DNA from: a virus
Virus record (IMG/VR): IMGVR_UViG_3300047560_000027
Location: 1-25,615 of that record
DNA: 25,615 bases
Direction: 5' to 3' (one strand)
In this document: piece by piece, positions 3,133-25,615 of the stretch
Layout: each line of letters begins with the position of its first letter
How positions within the stretch are numbered: position 1 is the stretch's first letter
Translations under genes and position numbers: made by a program
The notes under the pieces: model-generated
Told to the model about the DNA's origin: nothing
Seen by the model: only the letters and a program-made list of their open reading frames with translations
Databases searched by the model: none

Positions 3133-4452
3133 TTACAGCAAGTTAGTAACTTTAACTTTGCGGTAGTAGTAGTTTGCGTTCGCAGTCAAGTTGTCTTGAC
3201 CAGAAGTGCCGTCATCCAAGTTAACGAATGGGTTAGCAACTAGACCGTAACGAGTCTTGAAACCAATCTTTGGTTGGAAGCTGTTTGGATCAACAGCACG
3301 AACCATTTGCAATGGAACGTATGGGCAGTAGAACAAACCAGCGTCGAATGCAGAAGCACCCTTGTAACCAACAACGAAGAATTGGCTGTTAGATACGTTA
3401 GAAGTATATGGGTCAACATAAACTTTGTACTTACCGTTTAGAACACCAGCGAAAGTAGTAGAAGTGTCATCTACAGTCAATGCGTTCTTACCAGTGATAC
3501 CAGAGTTGTAGTCAAGAACACCAGCCATCGCCAATGCAGAAGCAACGTCTGCAGAAGTGATGATGATGTTACCACGACCACGACGAGTTTGTTGACCGAT
3601 AGCGTTAGCTTCACGTTCGATTTGGAACATCAAGCCCTTGAACTTTTCAACAGACCAACGACCGTTAGAGTCAACGTCCAAGTCGAAAGTACCAGCAGTA
3701 GCAGTACCAACTGCAGCACCAACTTTAGAAGTGTTGTAGATTGTACGGATAACTTCACGGTTGATTTCAGCAAGGATCTCAGTAGACAAGATGTTGCTCA
3801 ATTCACCTTCAGCGTCAAGACCATGAACAGATTTCAAGTCTTGTGCCAATTCGATAGAGTACTCAGCCTTCAAAGCACGAGTCTTAGCAACAACAGATGC
3901 CTTCTCGATAGAGAATGCCATTTGTGCGAAAGAACCGTCACCAGAACCGCCTTGACCCAAACGCTCAGCAGCCACAGTAGAGATACCACGACCAACTGCA
4001 TCAGAACCGCCTAGAGCAGAACCAGCAGAAGCGTCAGTACCGTCACCAGAGAAACCAGAGTTAACTTCGTTGAACAATGCTTCAGTACCGTTTTGAGTAG
4101 TGTAGCGAGACTTCATAGCGAAGATCAAACCAGTTGGTTGAGTCATTGGTTGAACACCAGCAACATCATAAGCGATCAATTGTGGCATCGCACGGCGAAC
4201 CAAAGAGATCAATACTGGATCGAAACCAGCAACACCACCAGTAGCACCGCCACCGACAGTACCGATTTGACCACCAGTGCCGTTAGTTGGAGAGCCTTCG
4301 AACAATGCTTCAGCTTGCTTTTGCATTTCACGTTCTTGGTTTTCCAATAGAACAGCAGTAACTTCCTTACGGTAGTTGTCTTGAATTGGGGCAGAACCTT
4401 CGTGGTTCAATACTGGAGCCCACTTCTCCATTAATTGTTGACGTGTTGTCAT
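3133..4452 (-). CDS. gp23: Major capsid protein gp23
   Basis: This 439-aa HK97-fold hexamer-forming shell protein is shorter than T4 gp23 (521 aa), so some T4 surface insertion is reduced or missing. The N-terminal 52 residues form a charged, helical delta-type propeptide. A prohead protease site fitting the T4 rule (Leu or Ile, any residue, Glu) is visible as LFE at residues 50-52, before a Gly-rich linker, giving a predicted mature protein of 387 aa. Family features include the segment around PQLIAYDVAGVQPM, where the mature N-arm meets the core, and the C-terminal FVNLDDG region. AAAGGAAAAT precedes the ATG. It follows gp22 by 22 bases with no clear promoter of its own, and is closed by the terminator at 3073-3099. 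Confidence 0.96.
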   Translation of the reverse strand: MTTRQQLMEKWAPVLNHEGSAPIQDNYRKEVTAVLLENQEREMQKQAEALFEGSPTNGTGGQIGTVGGGATGGVAGFDPVLISLVRRAMPQLIAYDVAGVQPMTQPTGLIFAMKSRYTTQNGTEALFNEVNSGFSGDGTDASAGSALGGSDAVGRGISTVAAERLGQGGSGDGSFAQMAFSIEKASVVAKTRALKAEYSIELAQDLKSVHGLDAEGELSNILSTEILAEINREVIRTIYNTSKVGAAVGTATAGTFDLDVDSNGRWSVEKFKGLMFQIEREANAIGQQTRRGRGNIIITSADVASALAMAGVLDYNSGITGKNALTVDDTSTTFAGVLNGKYKVYVDPYTSNVSNSQFFVVGYKGASAFDAGLFYCPYVPLQMVRAVDPNSFQPKIGFKTRYGLVANPFVNLDDGTSGQDNLTANANYYYRKVKVTNLL

Positions 4453-4474
4453 TTTTATTTTCCTTTAGGATTGA

Positions 4475-5479
4475 TTATTTGTTGAGAACTGATAGATAAG
4501 CAGACATTTTTGGATCTAGTGCTTTAACAGCAACTGTTTCCGCCAACATTTCTACTGGAGCATCAGTAACTACAGATTGCTCTGCAATTGTTTTAGTAGT
4601 GAAATAGTTTTCACGAATAGTCTTTAGCTTTTGTTCGAAAGACGCTACGTCTTCAAAAGACAATTCTTCAACCAAGCCCAAGAATTTCTCAGTCTCAGTA
4701 TCAGTCAAGCCTTCAGAGATAGACTTAACCAACTCAGCTTGTTTAGCTTCTGATAGGCTCTTAGTAAGAGCTACATTAGCTTCAACTTGCTCGTTTAGTT
4801 TTGCTTCGAGTTCAGCAACAGTGTTTTCCATTTCACCAAGAACGTCGTAACGCTCTTCTGGAATTTCAACATAGTGCTCTTCGAATAGGTCTTTCATACC
4901 AAGGATAAAACTCTCCATGATTTCAGACTTCATACCACGCTCAAGGGCGATTTCATTCTGTGCAATCCACTGCTCGGCAATATAGCCAAGGTATCCATCA
5001 ACTTGTTCAACAATTCCCTGTGTATTCTGCTCAACTTGCTCGGCAAGTTTAGCTTCGAATTCTTCTTCGATACGTGCAACTTCTTCAGCAACACGTGTAG
5101 TGACAGCAGCTTCGAAAATAGTAGTAGCTTTAGTTCTGAAGTCTTCAGAAAGCTCTTCACCATTCATAAGTGCGTCGATATCTTCTTTAACGCTAGTAGC
5201 GCCTTTGCGTACTGGAGACTGGTCACCATTCTTTGGGTTGGATGTACCAACTGGTGCCTTCTCAGCTTGTTTCTCATCATCCACGTTGTTACGTGCGCTG
5301 TCTGGATTAGCAGCTGGTGATTGTGCTGGAACAGCATCACCTTGACGAATAACTGATTGATCGCCAGCATGTGCGCCACCAGTAGTAGAGTCGCTACCAC
5401 CTTCTGCGCCAGCAAACTTGGCTTCATTTAACTTTTTAGATTCTGCCAAAATTTCAGCAATTTTTTGTTCGATTGACAT
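4475..5479 (-). CDS. gp22: Prohead core scaffold protein gp22
   Basis: This is the main internal scaffold of the prohead. In T4 it directs gp23 assembly and is then degraded to peptides by gp21. The 334-aa product (T4 269 aa) is Glu- and Lys-rich. Residues 25-100 form a polar low-complexity segment with Gly, Asp, Ser, Asn and Pro, and residues 95-300 are strongly helical and coiled-coil-like (for example VARIEEEFEAKLAEQVEQ). Several protease-type sites with Leu or Ile, any residue, then Glu occur near the N-terminus (IAE 7-9, LAE 11-13, LNE 17-19), fitting a protein destined for digestion. GGAG precedes the ATG. Three overlapping late-promoter octamers lie upstream, marking 22-23 as a highly transcribed pair. 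Confidence 0.92.
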   Translation of the reverse strand: MSIEQKIAEILAESKKLNEAKFAGAEGGSDSTTGGAHAGDQSVIRQGDAVPAQSPAANPDSARNNVDDEKQAEKAPVGTSNPKNGDQSPVRKGATSVKEDIDALMNGEELSEDFRTKATTIFEAAVTTRVAEEVARIEEEFEAKLAEQVEQNTQGIVEQVDGYLGYIAEQWIAQNEIALERGMKSEIMESFILGMKDLFEEHYVEIPEERYDVLGEMENTVAELEAKLNEQVEANVALTKSLSEAKQAELVKSISEGLTDTETEKFLGLVEELSFEDVASFEQKLKTIRENYFTTKTIAEQSVVTDAPVEMLAETVAVKALDPKMSAYLSVLNK

Positions 5480-21223: not shown

Positions 21224-23371
21224 TTAGTATGTACCGCCATCGATGTTAAATCCATCGATGTTAGAGTCTGCAGCGCCAGAACCGATAAGGTCAGTTCCAA
21301 CATATACTTTCTTAGCTACAGATAAACCACCAGATAGAACAACAGCTGCAGTTCCAAGAGGACCAGCGTCAGTTGTATTAGTGAATGTTACTAATCCAGA
21401 GGCAGATAGTGTTGTAGCAGCAACAGAACCAGCGAAAGAAGAAGATGTAATCGTCTTGTTGCTTAGGGATTCAGTTCCAGTTAAAGTCGCTAAAGTGCCT
21501 GAAGTTGGTAGTGTTAAGCTAGTATTAGCTGTAACAGTTAAAGTTGTATTATAAGCACCAGCAGTAGTTAAATTACCACCTAAAGTCAGTGTATTAGAAC
21601 CGTTATTTACACCAGTACCACCGTAAATAGGATCAACAATAGTGCCTTGCCATACACCAGTATTAATAGTACCGAGTGTGGTGATAGATGTTTGACCAAC
21701 ATATGTGGATGCAATATCTACTGTGTTTGAATTAATAGTGATACGATCTGCAGTACCGCCAACAGATAATACACCATCAGTAATAGATAAACCATCACCC
21801 GCAACAGTAGACTTCAACTGTAGATTATCTGCAGAGATCTCAATGCCACCAAGTGGCGCTACATTAACCTCTAATGTATAACCGTTCTTAGAAAGACCAT
21901 TACCTGCAATTAAAGTTCCAGAGGCAGAGAATAGCGCAAAATCGAGAGCAGTTGTACCGAGAGTGATTGGGTCATTAGTTGTTAGAACAAAACCACAATC
22001 GCTGTTAACTGTACCTTGTTCAACGAAACAGAACATACCAGAAGTGACTTCACCGCCTGGATTGTTGTCGGCATCAGTCGCACGAGTCCAAGAACCAGAA
22101 GCGACTACATAGATACCATTTTGGGATTTTACAGTTTGGTCTTTAACAAGAACACGATCACCAACAGAAAGTGCAACATCATCAATAGTCTGTGTATTGC
22201 TTAGCGTGATATTTGCATTAGTAGCAACCTTAACAGACTGTTTAACATCTAAACCAGAACGAGCAGCGTCTACGTAGTATTTTGTAGCTGCATCAGAGTC
22301 AGCGACAGGTTCTGCGACATTAGTGATTCTAGAAGAAGATGCATTAATATTACCATCACCATTAGGGCTGATAACGATGTCACCATCTGTATCAGTAGAA
22401 CTAATAGTGTTACCATTGATATTGATATTATCAACAGTAAGTTCTGTGATGCCAGCTAGAGAAGTAGAAGTGGCACCAAGAGCAACAGTAGTAGTACCGA
22501 ATGTTACGCTAGAGTTAACCAACTGTGTGTTTGTAACACCACCAGATTTGATTGTAACATCACCACCAGTAACAGTAAAGCTAGCAGTATTGAAAGTCGC
22601 AACACCACGATTAGTGTCAGTTGCAAGTTCAGCAGAGATAGTGATAGTATTATTGCTAACTGATGTATCAATACCTTCACCACCAATGACAGATAATGTA
22701 TCAGTCAGAAGGGCAATAGAATCAGTACCAGTATCTGCAGCTAGTCCTAGACTTGTAGCTAGAGAAGCTGTACCAGCAGCAGTCAAACGACCTTTGCTAT
22801 CAACTGTGAATGTTGGGATACTAGTAGAAGAACCGTAAGAACCAGCAATAACGCCAGTAGTCTTAAGTGCTAGTGAAGTAGTACCAGCACCGTCATCGTA
22901 AGTAGCATCAATTTCATCACTATCTGCGATAGCACCACCAGAAACGTCTTGGATGTACTCAGCAAGAGTTGTGCTTGTATCACCAATGTAAGTGTTTGTA
23001 AGAACTAACTTACCAGTACCATTTGGAGTGATGTTCAAATCACCGTTGGTATTTGTAGTGCTTAATGTGCTACCGTTTAATTGTAGGTTATCGACTAATA
23101 GGTTATCAATCTTGCTATCTGAATCAGTAATGATAGCAGAGTTTGCTGTTAATGTACCTTTGTTGTGGTCCAACATATCGGTGAAAAACTTACCACCGAT
23201 AACGACGTGATTGACTGCGTTGCCGCTAGTCTCTGTGCCCATACCAATGTATAGACGATCACCGCCGTTTGAACCATTGTCAGTTAAGGCTGAATACGCT
23301 AACTCACCAGCACCCAGTGTACTTGGGTTACCAGATGTGCTAGAACGCTTAATTCTAATAATAGATGCCAT
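21224..23371 (-). CDS. Long tail-fibre-like protein, 715 aa
   Basis: This 715-aa structural protein starts with the shared anchoring pattern (IIRIKRSSTSGNP, GELAYSAL, DRLYIGMGTE, residues 4-48). A repeated segment occurs at residues 92-120 and 312-340 (VDNLQLNG...NGDLNITPNGTG, versus VDNININ...DGDIVISPNGDG). The central block SRITNVAEPVADSDAATKYY (347-366) is typical of phage fibre shafts. Later are a GIYVVASG and WTRATDADN region and a YGGTG segment. The protein ends in a direct repeat, NIDG-x-NIDGG, then TY. It is Gly-, Thr- and Ser-rich throughout with few Cys, so probably a trimeric beta fibre. GGAGAAA precedes the start. Host-receptor contact is inference. Confidence 0.75.
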   Translation of the reverse strand: MASIIRIKRSSTSGNPSTLGAGELAYSALTDNGSNGGDRLYIGMGTETSGNAVNHVVIGGKFFTDMLDHNKGTLTANSAIITDSDSKIDNLLVDNLQLNGSTLSTTNTNGDLNITPNGTGKLVLTNTYIGDTSTTLAEYIQDVSGGAIADSDEIDATYDDGAGTTSLALKTTGVIAGSYGSSTSIPTFTVDSKGRLTAAGTASLATSLGLAADTGTDSIALLTDTLSVIGGEGIDTSVSNNTITISAELATDTNRGVATFNTASFTVTGGDVTIKSGGVTNTQLVNSSVTFGTTTVALGATSTSLAGITELTVDNININGNTISSTDTDGDIVISPNGDGNINASSSRITNVAEPVADSDAATKYYVDAARSGLDVKQSVKVATNANITLSNTQTIDDVALSVGDRVLVKDQTVKSQNGIYVVASGSWTRATDADNNPGGEVTSGMFCFVEQGTVNSDCGFVLTTNDPITLGTTALDFALFSASGTLIAGNGLSKNGYTLEVNVAPLGGIEISADNLQLKSTVAGDGLSITDGVLSVGGTADRITINSNTVDIASTYVGQTSITTLGTINTGVWQGTIVDPIYGGTGVNNGSNTLTLGGNLTTAGAYNTTLTVTANTSLTLPTSGTLATLTGTESLSNKTITSSSFAGSVAATTLSASGLVTFTNTTDAGPLGTAAVVLSGGLSVAKKVYVGTDLIGSGAADSNIDGFNIDGGTY

Positions 23372-23385
23372 CTTTTATTTCTCCA

Positions 23386-23631
23386 TTAAAATTCTCCACC
23401 TTCCATGTTCTGTGCATCTAAGGTGGTTGTGGATGTCCACTTGTTTGTTATTGTTTTGTATACCAAAATAGACCCATTAGCCTTAACTGTTGTATCAACG
23501 TCTGCAATATTAGACATTGATTCGACTACAGAAGGGTTAGCCACATTTGATGAAGAAAGTGTAAGAACACCCTCAGAGACTGCTACCTGAAGTGCTTCAT
23601 CGGGTTGTACAATAGCGATTGTATCTGCCAT
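23386..23631 (-). CDS. Small fibre-associated protein, 81 aa
   Basis: I do not recognise a named family. The 81-aa product has no Cys, a beta-like N-terminal half (ALQVAVSEGVLTLSSS), a central SNIADVDTTVKANGSILVYK and a polar C-terminus ending NMEGGEF. The last residues resemble the NIDGGTY end of the 715-aa fibre. The ATG follows the upstream stop by one base and lacks a clear ribosome site, so translation is probably coupled to the 111-aa gene. Position suggests an adaptor or shaft piece in the fibre complex. Confidence 0.6.
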   Translation of the reverse strand: MADTIAIVQPDEALQVAVSEGVLTLSSSNVANPSVVESMSNIADVDTTVKANGSILVYKTITNKWTSTTTLDAQNMEGGEF

Positions 23632-23632
23632 A

Positions 23633-23968
23633 TTAAATCTGCGTTATTTGTGGGTTAACTGTTACGATACCCTCGACAACTCTGGTTTTTGTGCCAGATT
23701 GTGATGTGATTTCTACGTCGTATAGCCAGCGTCCAGCTGGAATAGCTGAAGACTGGTCGGAATCGAGTTGGAGGCGAACTTTACCAGCATTAGCGTCATA
23801 GACTGATGCTGTGAAATTGTAGGCTACAGATGAGCTATACGATTTTCTCATCTGAGATTTAACCGTATAACCTGTTAGATTTAGTGGTTGTCCGTTAGTA
23901 GCAGCAACGGTGATGATATTACTATAATTTGCCCCTGCATCTACGAAAAGATTACTAATTGTCGCCAT
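23633..23968 (-). CDS. Ig-like beta-sandwich structural protein (BppU N-domain-like), 111 aa
   Basis: This 111-aa protein follows a beta-sandwich pattern seen in the N-terminal domain of baseplate upper proteins: an N-terminal strand, PLNLTGYTVKSQMRKS (28-43), a D-x-x-x-GKVRLQL strand (58-67), IPAGRWLYDVEITSQSG (76-92) and VVEGIVTVNPQITQ near the end. The segment order LTGYTV, PAGRW-Y-V, G-x-V-x-P is the basis of the call. It is probably a small virion structural protein acting with the 81-aa and 715-aa products. It has the best late promoter match of the window upstream, so it starts the fibre transcript. AGGA lies about nine bases before the ATG. Confidence 0.6.
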   Translation of the reverse strand: MATISNLFVDAGANYSNIITVAATNGQPLNLTGYTVKSQMRKSYSSSVAYNFTASVYDANAGKVRLQLDSDQSSAIPAGRWLYDVEITSQSGTKTRVVEGIVTVNPQITQI

Positions 23969-24023: not shown

Positions 24024-25412
24024 TTACGCTGCAATAATAGGGATTATTTTTTTAGCTTTTCTAGTCTTCTCTGGCTTACCATTAACCCACCAGAAAATGT
24101 CTTTTCTGTCCTGTCGCAGAGGACCATCGATGTACATCGGGACGAATCCAGTAGCTGATTCAATTGCTGTCGCAAACACTACGATGTTATCGCTATATGC
24201 GTTATTGCAAGAAGCCTCCCAGAGATCTCCAGAAAGGAACATACAAGCGCCTTTACAGATATGAATAACTGGACATTTAGGACATTCTTCTCTATCTTTC
24301 CAGTGAGTAGAAGTATCTAATCTAACAGCTTCTAGGTCAGAGACATGGCCAATTTTATGCGAAACACCAGCTGGATTGTTAGAGACAGCACTTACGTTCT
24401 GGCAGGTCAATACGTTTCCATTTAAGTCTACCGCCATAGAATCTGACTTGTCCATACCACACTTTTGCGGTAATGATTCTATTCTTCTTCCAGAATAGAT
24501 ACCGTTCAAGAACCCTTTAACTTTATCGTGAACTGCCATGAAACGAGTGACCTTAGTTTCCCTAAGTTCATTATAAGCTAAGTTTCTAAATTTGATTTCC
24601 TCTTCTTCGTCTTGTAGAGAGTTTGTCATACCACCTTCGTCGTATGCGTCTACGAAACCACCTTCTCCGATGCAAACATACTTGGTCCATTCATCGCCTA
24701 GATTTTCTCTAATAAAATTGAGGAAATAACTTTCAATGTCTCCTCTACTAACATTCTTATTGTTGATCATTGCATTGAATGAAAACTTGTTTTGAGGAGC
24801 GAGAATCTTATATGCTTGAAGAATAGCTTCTTTAGATTTTTCGTCTTCTAAAGGATCTGGACCACGAACATGTTGCCCTGGACCATCATGAGAAAACCCA
24901 ATCCAGAAGCCATGTTTGTTCAGCCACTCAATCTTATCCATGTCTAACAAACTACCGTTAGTGATAACTGATCGAGTTGAGTTTGGATATTTTTCTACGA
25001 TCGCTTCAACCAGAGGTTTCATTGTTTTCCAGTAAACAAATGGTTCTCCACCCCAAAACTCGAAGTGTGTCCCTAGACCCTGACCATCATCGCCACCTTG
25101 ATACCAAGTAGACATATTTTGTACAAATGGTAGAACATCATCTGGGTTAGTTGAATCTGCGTGTGGTACGAATCTTTGAGAACAATAGTCACACTCAAAG
25201 TTGCAAGAAAGCCCTAGCTGGACTTTAATTGTCTTTAGACCTTTCTTAGAGTGTTCTATCTTTGCAGGCTCATCGACTGGTGGGGAAGTTACCGTACCAT
25301 TTAGAATATGAGTTCCATCTTGCCACTTTAATGTGCTAACAGAACTGTCATACACCATTACTCGTTCTTCTTGGTTGACTGGGTTCCATACTTTAATTTC
25401 AAATGTTGCCAT
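24024..25412 (-). CDS. Radical SAM/SPASM enzyme, anSME-like
   Basis: This 462-aa enzyme has the radical SAM cluster motif CNFECDYC (Cys70, Cys74, Cys77), the SAM-binding GGE motif in FWGGEPFVYW (119-128), the TNGS strand (151-154) and FSHDGPGQHVRG (173-184), close to the S-x-DGP...R block of sulfatase-maturase-like enzymes. The C-terminal SPASM set is complete: Cys318-x13-Gly332-x4-Cys337, then Cys377-x2-Cys380-x5-Cys386-x3-Cys390, and Cys402. It would bind auxiliary 4Fe-4S clusters and modify a peptide or protein residue, by family precedent. Residues 1-60 are an extra beta-rich segment. It sits beside fibre genes, with no recognisable precursor peptide. GAGGT precedes the ATG. No sulfatase is present. 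Confidence 0.92.
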   Translation of the reverse strand: MATFEIKVWNPVNQEERVMVYDSSVSTLKWQDGTHILNGTVTSPPVDEPAKIEHSKKGLKTIKVQLGLSCNFECDYCSQRFVPHADSTNPDDVLPFVQNMSTWYQGGDDGQGLGTHFEFWGGEPFVYWKTMKPLVEAIVEKYPNSTRSVITNGSLLDMDKIEWLNKHGFWIGFSHDGPGQHVRGPDPLEDEKSKEAILQAYKILAPQNKFSFNAMINNKNVSRGDIESYFLNFIRENLGDEWTKYVCIGEGGFVDAYDEGGMTNSLQDEEEEIKFRNLAYNELRETKVTRFMAVHDKVKGFLNGIYSGRRIESLPQKCGMDKSDSMAVDLNGNVLTCQNVSAVSNNPAGVSHKIGHVSDLEAVRLDTSTHWKDREECPKCPVIHICKGACMFLSGDLWEASCNNAYSDNIVVFATAIESATGFVPMYIDGPLRQDRKDIFWWVNGKPEKTRKAKKIIPIIAA

Positions 25413-25420
25413 TATTTACC

Positions 25421-25615
25421 TCAATTTTGTGGGGGTTGTGCGTATATGTTTTTATATCCATCCAACAAGAATAACCATGTTGGGTCAGTTGCTAAAAAAG
25501 ATGAAATTCTTTTTTCTTTATTCTTAGCGTAATGAGTTTCTCCAAACATCTCATCTAATACTTGTCTCATCTGCCATCGGTGTGTGTTCGCATCACCTTT
25601 GACTTTAGTGAAAGG
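25421..25615 (-). CDS. Partial gene, C-terminal 64 residues of an unrecognised protein
   Basis: An open frame runs from the right edge to a TGA at 25421-25423. The visible 64 residues contain HRWQMRQVLDEMFGETHY, a basic KNKEKR patch and TDPTWLFLLDGYKNIYA, and end PPQN. Composition and frame continuity look coding. I do not recognise a family. It ends eight bases before the radical SAM start, so the two are probably co-transcribed. Confidence 0.6.
   Translation of the reverse strand, partial: PFTKVKGDANTHRWQMRQVLDEMFGETHYAKNKEKRISSFLATDPTWLFLLDGYKNIYAQPPQN

Follow-up and report, generated by a model that had tools for sequence, protein, structure and literature searches.

A candidate SPASM maturase paired with cysteine-rich C-terminal tails of phage fiber proteins

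Known SPASM maturases and the phage enzyme

Targets that bear repeats are already known for radical SAM maturases. In the HxsB/HxsC (His-Xaa-Ser) and CefB (Cys-every-fifth) systems, a SPASM enzyme is matched to a short-repeat target, and ACGX is a further radical SAM system whose target bears repeats. To our knowledge, these targets differ from the one considered here and are not phage tail fibers, which determine host range and are usually regarded as protein without modifications. Other SPASM enzymes, namely, PapB, the SCIFF maturase CteB, and NxxcB, act on Cys-rich precursors (PMC6231123, PMC8326336). The AuxI site of CteB is open and binds a substrate cysteine, whereas AuxI is fully ligated in anSME, SuiB, and PqqE (PMC6231123). 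Finally, QhpD demonstrates that SPASM enzymes are able to crosslink a subunit of a protein instead of a free peptide, in this case through Cys-Asp/Glu thioethers (PMC7876137); its substrate, QhpC, belongs to a periplasmic enzyme, bears a leader peptide, and is not a virion protein.

The enzyme described here is encoded on a 25.6-kb fragment of a T4-like phage (the whole stretch of DNA analyzed, referred to as the window), whose terminase is ~51% identical to the terminases of Methylophilales phage Melnitz and cyanophages. The gene reads leftwards, and small tail genes followed by fiber/virion genes (at 14 to 24 kb) lie directly downstream of it (Table 1). This gene order confirms that the enzyme gene sits directly upstream of the fiber cluster, as the initial annotation had placed it. 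The first of the small tail proteins also has a BppU_N match, which is below the cut-off. On the other side of the enzyme gene, the window ends within a gene whose full-length relatives (cluster c3) give weak Asn_synthase-, LarE-, and QueC-like matches.

Table 1. Coordinates of the enzyme, its motifs, and its neighbors in the window
Feature	Position	Strand	Basis
Radical SAM/SPASM enzyme, 462 aa, phrog_1802 family	24024..25412	-	Translation, profile matches, AlphaFold model
N-terminal module of the enzyme, ~60 aa, short beta strands	25227..25412	-	DSSP of model
CxxxCxxC radical SAM cluster motif, C70-x3-C74-x2-C77	25182..25205	-	Translation; invariant in 30/30 homologs
SPASM cysteines C318, C337, C377, C380, C386, C390, C402	24207..24461	-	TIGR04085 match; invariant
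PP-loop/asparagine-synthase-like protein (cluster c3), C-terminal end, cut by fragment end	25421..25615	-	Cluster and position as L003:6943-7992
111-aa tail protein, first gene downstream of enzyme	23633..23968	-	phrog_1084, phrog_3304 (L-shaped tail fiber assembly-like)
81-aa protein, second gene downstream of enzyme	23386..23631	-	Cluster c7, conserved in 31 loci
715-aa fiber/virion structural protein, itself without cysteine tail	21224..23371	-	ORF and PHROG match

The open reading frame runs from an ATG start without a single internal stop. Its seven-cysteine SPASM pattern is complete (C318-x13-G332-x4-C337...C377-x2-C380-x5-C386-x3-C390...C402) and fits the published motif, CX9-15GX4C-gap-CX2CX5CX3C-gap-C (PMC6231123). 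Exactly ten cysteines, three of the radical SAM motif and seven of the SPASM domain, are invariant in 30/30 diverse homologs, and any other alignment column holds a cysteine in at most 6 of the 30. Profile matches assign the protein to the radical SAM superfamily (Pfam PF04055, 29.8 bits; cut-off, 29.5), to the SPASM domain family (TIGR04085, 33.8 bits; cut-off, 27), and to phrog_1802, "radical SAM domain-containing protein" (residues 47 to 421; E = 4e-65). The AlphaFold model (mean pLDDT, 90.8; pTM, 0.89) has the partial TIM barrel fold of radical SAM enzymes and, among PDB structures, most resembles anSME, ChlB, CteB, TigE, and SuiB; anSMEcpe is the top full-length match (E = 5.4e-14), and ChlB is second. 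The gene is intact, and neither chance nor decay is apparent. The initial annotation had reached the same view from the intact CxxxCxxC motif and full SPASM pattern, and the uninterrupted frame, the invariant cysteines, and the confident model bear it out.

The assignment of the enzyme to a subfamily is less clear-cut. Among the matches listed, none reached a curated NCBIfam subfamily cut-off; the highest scores were for DynA (dynobactin maturase, 52.9 bits), nif11 (52), PapB (NF047865, 51.9 versus a cut-off of 340), the sulfatase maturase anSME (TIGR03942, 49.5 versus 349), and QhpD (TIGR03906, 44.2 versus 453), and with cut-offs of several hundred bits such scores have no power to separate subfamilies. 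The SCIFF maturase model (TIGR03974) gave 37.7 versus 425, and the HxsB/HxsC and CefB models likewise score the enzyme weakly. By DSSP, the N-terminal module has strands at residues 3 to 9, 16 to 22, 27 to 30, and 61 to 65 and no helix, and the AlphaFold model appears to contain no helical RRE leader-binding domain there. In this, the enzyme would differ from the ranthipeptide maturases, as it would in acting on the C terminus of a large structural protein.

We considered the possibility that the enzyme is a sulfatase maturase and rejected it, since no sulfatase was seen in the annotated neighborhoods, the curated score was not reached, and one AuxI cysteine fewer is expected than in anSME. 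A homolog in Achromobacter phage JWF (KP202971.1, 31659-32894) is labeled an anaerobic sulfatase-maturating enzyme in GenBank; the evidence here gives that label no support.

Linkage of the enzyme and the tail in both directions

The fragment stops 203 bases upstream of the enzyme gene, which is why the window shows no precursor. A relative (locus L003) that is collinear with the window, with 88% DNA identity across the enzyme region, carries in order c2 (1101 aa, partial), a 78-aa protein, a fiber (3552-4751), an Ig-domain protein, three genes, the enzyme, and the downstream genes of the window. The fiber gene of this relative is located 3.2 kb upstream and encodes a protein with the C terminus ...YTYNCNCACNC. 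Thus, the earlier statement that no precursor is seen holds for the fragment and fails for its close relative. The window holds no tailed fiber of its own, and its pairing rests on relatives, in most of which a gene at the first or second position upstream of the enzyme encodes a protein ending in ...NCNCNC, ...NCNCNCNC, or a longer tail.

The linkage was counted from the enzyme to the tail in loci found via the enzyme alone, after redundancy had been removed at 90% and only loci with 3.5 kb or more of upstream sequence had been kept. A tail was present in 44/48 phage loci and in 42/52 bacterial (prophage-like) loci. The four phage loci without a tail comprise two with a shorter ending, NCRNCNC (L006 and L007), one with a CNCSKIIC motif (L073), and one at a contig edge (L077). 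The 10 bacterial misses are L279, whose tail precedes a Hint motif and was missed by the regular expression; L213, whose fiber frame is broken; L247; and seven of the most distant enzymes, which have profile scores below 340 and, like L247, have no tail nearby. Matches in Campylobacter and Thermus phages were left out of the analysis; these are distant (E about 1e-7) and partial and have no such tail nearby.

The linkage also holds from the tail to the enzyme. A scan of IMG/VR for AAYTGYAAYTGYAAYTGYAAYTGYTRR returned 52 stretches, 46 of which were true in-frame (NC)4+ C termini. The enzyme was found within 39 of these 46 stretches and on the same contig in four more (L100, on the contig of L041; L127, on the contig of L017; L116; and L135), giving 43/46, while the remaining three (L111, L115, and L119) reach a contig edge 0.07 to 1.4 kb past the tail. 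As a background, 14 of 8066 other ORFs of at least 70 aa in the same loci have a CxCxC ending. This survey of relatives for co-occurrence, which the initial annotation had named as a check, strongly supports the enzyme and the tailed protein as a conserved pair.

The short form of the tail motif is less specific. A looser scan for (NC)3 recovered NCNCNC-ending proteins for which no enzyme was found on their mostly partial records, both in L144 (1838-2392), L168, L198, L174, and L165 and in L146 (2303-2911; DUF6712), L161, L170, L178, L185, and L200. It is possible that these phage families represent metal sites or counter-examples.

A tree of 71 enzymes places the window among enzymes paired with tailed fibers (smallest supported sets, 97 to 99% SH-aLRT). 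Hint-tailed systems occur in two separate places in this tree, and most tail-less members are among the distant homologs. These placements indicate that the enzyme and the tail stayed together while the carrier protein changed. The pair also shares one feature of RiPP pathways, a genetically linked precursor with a modifiable core, and here the predicted precursor is usually the C terminus of a fiber rather than a short peptide.

Carriers of the tail and neighboring genes

In 171 distinct tails, the residues between the cysteines are mainly Asn (384), Ala (112), and Asp (48), and other residues are rare; N-x-x-C occurs in 160 of the tails, and some tails are (AC)n repeats without Asn. Synonymous codons are mixed in 82/97 tails, which points to selection at the protein level and rules out an origin of the tails as a DNA-repeat artifact.

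The tail is carried by several kinds of protein, including the c4 fiber of T4-like phages (tail fiber profile match, 2e-12), an 891-aa fiber (L043; 2.7e-200), a collagen-like fiber in a Burkholderiaceae prophage-like locus (L206; 5.8e-89), and the small c8 protein. Family clustering of the carriers merges several fiber types via shared fiber motifs, so that a total of unrelated families cannot be counted. In L036 (3431-4214) and L046 (3799-4608), there are three tandem proteins of ~85 aa with different bodies, each of them NC-tailed, and L105, L112, and L114 each encode two NC-tailed small proteins; these look like alternative or mixed fiber ends. A free, bacteriocin-like product was considered and rejected, since the tail sits on fibers and no transporter or protease was evident in the annotated neighborhoods. 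A 62-aa RiPP-precursor-like protein ending in GACACACGGPCY is encoded just downstream of a distant enzyme homolog (L282:9771-9956) and is perhaps a link to non-phage peptide systems.

In some carriers, the tail is not the last element of the encoded protein. It runs into a Hint motif (CFPAGT) in Achromobacter phages JWF and 2-1, in Burkholderia paludis, and in several Rhodospirillaceae loci, and the motif follows straight after the tail in L082, L083, L230, L272, L273, L275, L279, and L280. Hint domains cut themselves off at the cysteine of this motif. Here, the domain would presumably cleave itself off after the tail, which would then again be the C terminus.

The c8 long-form lineage has a further domain after the cysteine motif, and its surrounding genes look non-structural. 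In L066 (2856-3758), L069 (1981-2880), and L079 (7021-8034), the cysteine run of the c8 protein is followed by a conserved extra domain (CSKIIC.KL...) and a hydrophobic C terminus; this domain has no match in Pfam or PHROG. The initial annotation had held that related phages with the enzyme away from fiber genes and a dedicated precursor would count against its proposal. This lineage (the L061-L079 type) corresponds to that case in part, since its enzyme is encoded outside the fiber cluster, yet even there the neighboring protein bears the cysteine motif.

Further enzymes are encoded close to the pair. An iterated 2OG-Fe(II) oxygenase profile matches a protein near the enzyme in 42/66 bacterial and 11/66 viral loci; the protein has two conserved His columns, and some single matches are weak and absent from the Pfam results. 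Phage relatives also encode an Asp/Asn hydroxylase-like protein. Roughly half of the viral loci encode, close to the enzyme, a PP-loop/asparagine-synthase-like protein (e.g., L010:10692-11747) that is possibly a second tailoring enzyme. A Trp-halogenase-like flavoprotein (PF04820) occurs near the enzyme and tail in L055 (10432-11598) and L080 (9538-10704); a radical SAM enzyme and a flavoprotein monooxygenase are also paired in the maturation of QHNDH. In L071 (4378-5819) and L081, genes for two fatty-acid-desaturase-like proteins (PF00487) separate the enzyme from the c8 cysteine protein. The fiber cluster of T4-like phages that adjoins the enzyme contains a DctP-like (TRAP transporter) solute-binding protein (PF03480, 147 bits), found at L007:7277-8224, in L010 and 20 other viral loci, and at 5881-6882 in L003. 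Collectively, the neighboring enzyme genes suggest a wider, putative tailoring cluster.

Proposed chemistry, alternatives, and implications

We propose a phage-encoded modification system with this enzyme as its maturase and, as its substrate, the cysteine-rich tail at the C terminus of a fiber or similar virion protein, and we assign this reading a probability of roughly 0.8. The fiber would be made with an alternating C terminus (e.g., N-C-N-C-N-C-N-C), on which the enzyme, judging from sequence comparisons, would act directly and post-translationally. For the earlier suggestion that a virion protein, perhaps a fiber, may be modified, the two-way link to cysteine-tailed fiber and structural proteins provides strong comparative-genomic support; the modification itself stays a prediction.

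For the product, we give about even odds to thioether bridges from Cys sulfur to a carbon of nearby Asn, Asp, or Ala, for which the ranthipeptides and the QhpC subunit would serve as models. With exactly seven SPASM cysteines, three Cys ligands are expected at AuxI, and a non-Cys fourth ligand is conceivable. In NxxcA, Cys23 is linked to Asn20 (PMC8326336), and N-x-x-C is inherent in an (NC)n repeat. Against the thioether reading, the (AC)n tails fit an Asn acceptor poorly, the top fold match is anSME, and the sequence scores are indiscriminate. A bridged tail could form a rigid, reduction-proof cap at the fiber end; it is speculative that this cap lies at the receptor-binding tip and stabilizes the tip or joins in host contact. 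In its broadest form, a proposal on which we would bet neither way, the SPASM enzyme, often with the 2OG-Fe(II) oxygenase and other tailoring enzymes, would put repeated thioether or other crosslinks into (N/A/D-C)n fiber tails, constituting a widespread RiPP-like class in tailed phages with covalently knotted receptor-binding ends.

The enzyme may instead act on the tail by other chemistry, such as Cys-to-formylglycine conversion (anSME-like), C-C crosslinking (ChlB/SuiB-like), epimerization, or methylation. We entertain this tentatively, given the fold ranking of anSMEcpe and ChlB and the NCBIfam scores, which lie far below cut-off and separate no subfamily. With seven SPASM cysteines and not eight, however, an open AuxI is expected, unlike in anSME and SuiB (PMC6231123). 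Aromatic residues between the tail cysteines are not conserved, which also argues against these chemistries. In addition, the tails have no sulfatase motif, C/S-x-P/A-x-R.

It is unlikely that the tail is a metal- or Fe-S-binding fiber end and that the enzyme modifies another component or aids metal loading. CxCxC clusters are plausible metal ligands, many c4 fibers also bear HHH runs ahead of the tail, and the tip of the T4 long tail fiber has HxH iron sites. However, the enzyme is tied to the tail, not to histidine tips, across several fiber types, and simple metal binding requires no SPASM enzyme.

Another conserved neighbor could be the true substrate, with the tail as a cofactor or recognition handle. 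One such neighbor is the Ig-domain protein c1, whose C-terminal fold resembles intimin Ig domains and which 44/66 viral and 45/66 bacterial loci encode near the enzyme, mostly between it and the fiber. Its invariant positions are M1, G235, and G269 only, with no conserved Cys pattern, and much of the c8 lineage lacks c1 but still has the enzyme next to the tailed protein; we therefore regard this reading as decidedly improbable. Radical SAM genes of phages are often classed as auxiliary or cassette genes (e.g., PMC5332604, PMC7029224), but the reciprocal enzyme-tail linkage over unrelated phages and prophages makes it highly improbable that this one is an auxiliary metabolic or host-directed enzyme lying near fiber genes by chance, and the host target offered as a second option in the initial annotation found no support.

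In the open-access papers searched, we found no description of (NC)n phage tails or of the enzyme-tail pairing, and a phage tail fiber as the target of a radical SAM maturase appears to be new. The pairing suggests that many phages chemically rebuild the fiber ends that contact the host. If modification of the tail by the enzyme is true, fiber models and expressed fibers that ignore it would be wrong for such phages, and residues that the genetic code does not specify could take part in host recognition. A phage enzyme family that so far carries only the label "radical SAM" would also gain both a function and a substrate, the conspicuous repeat of the fiber ends would be accounted for, and a naturally repeated substrate would be available for enzymatic crosslinking.
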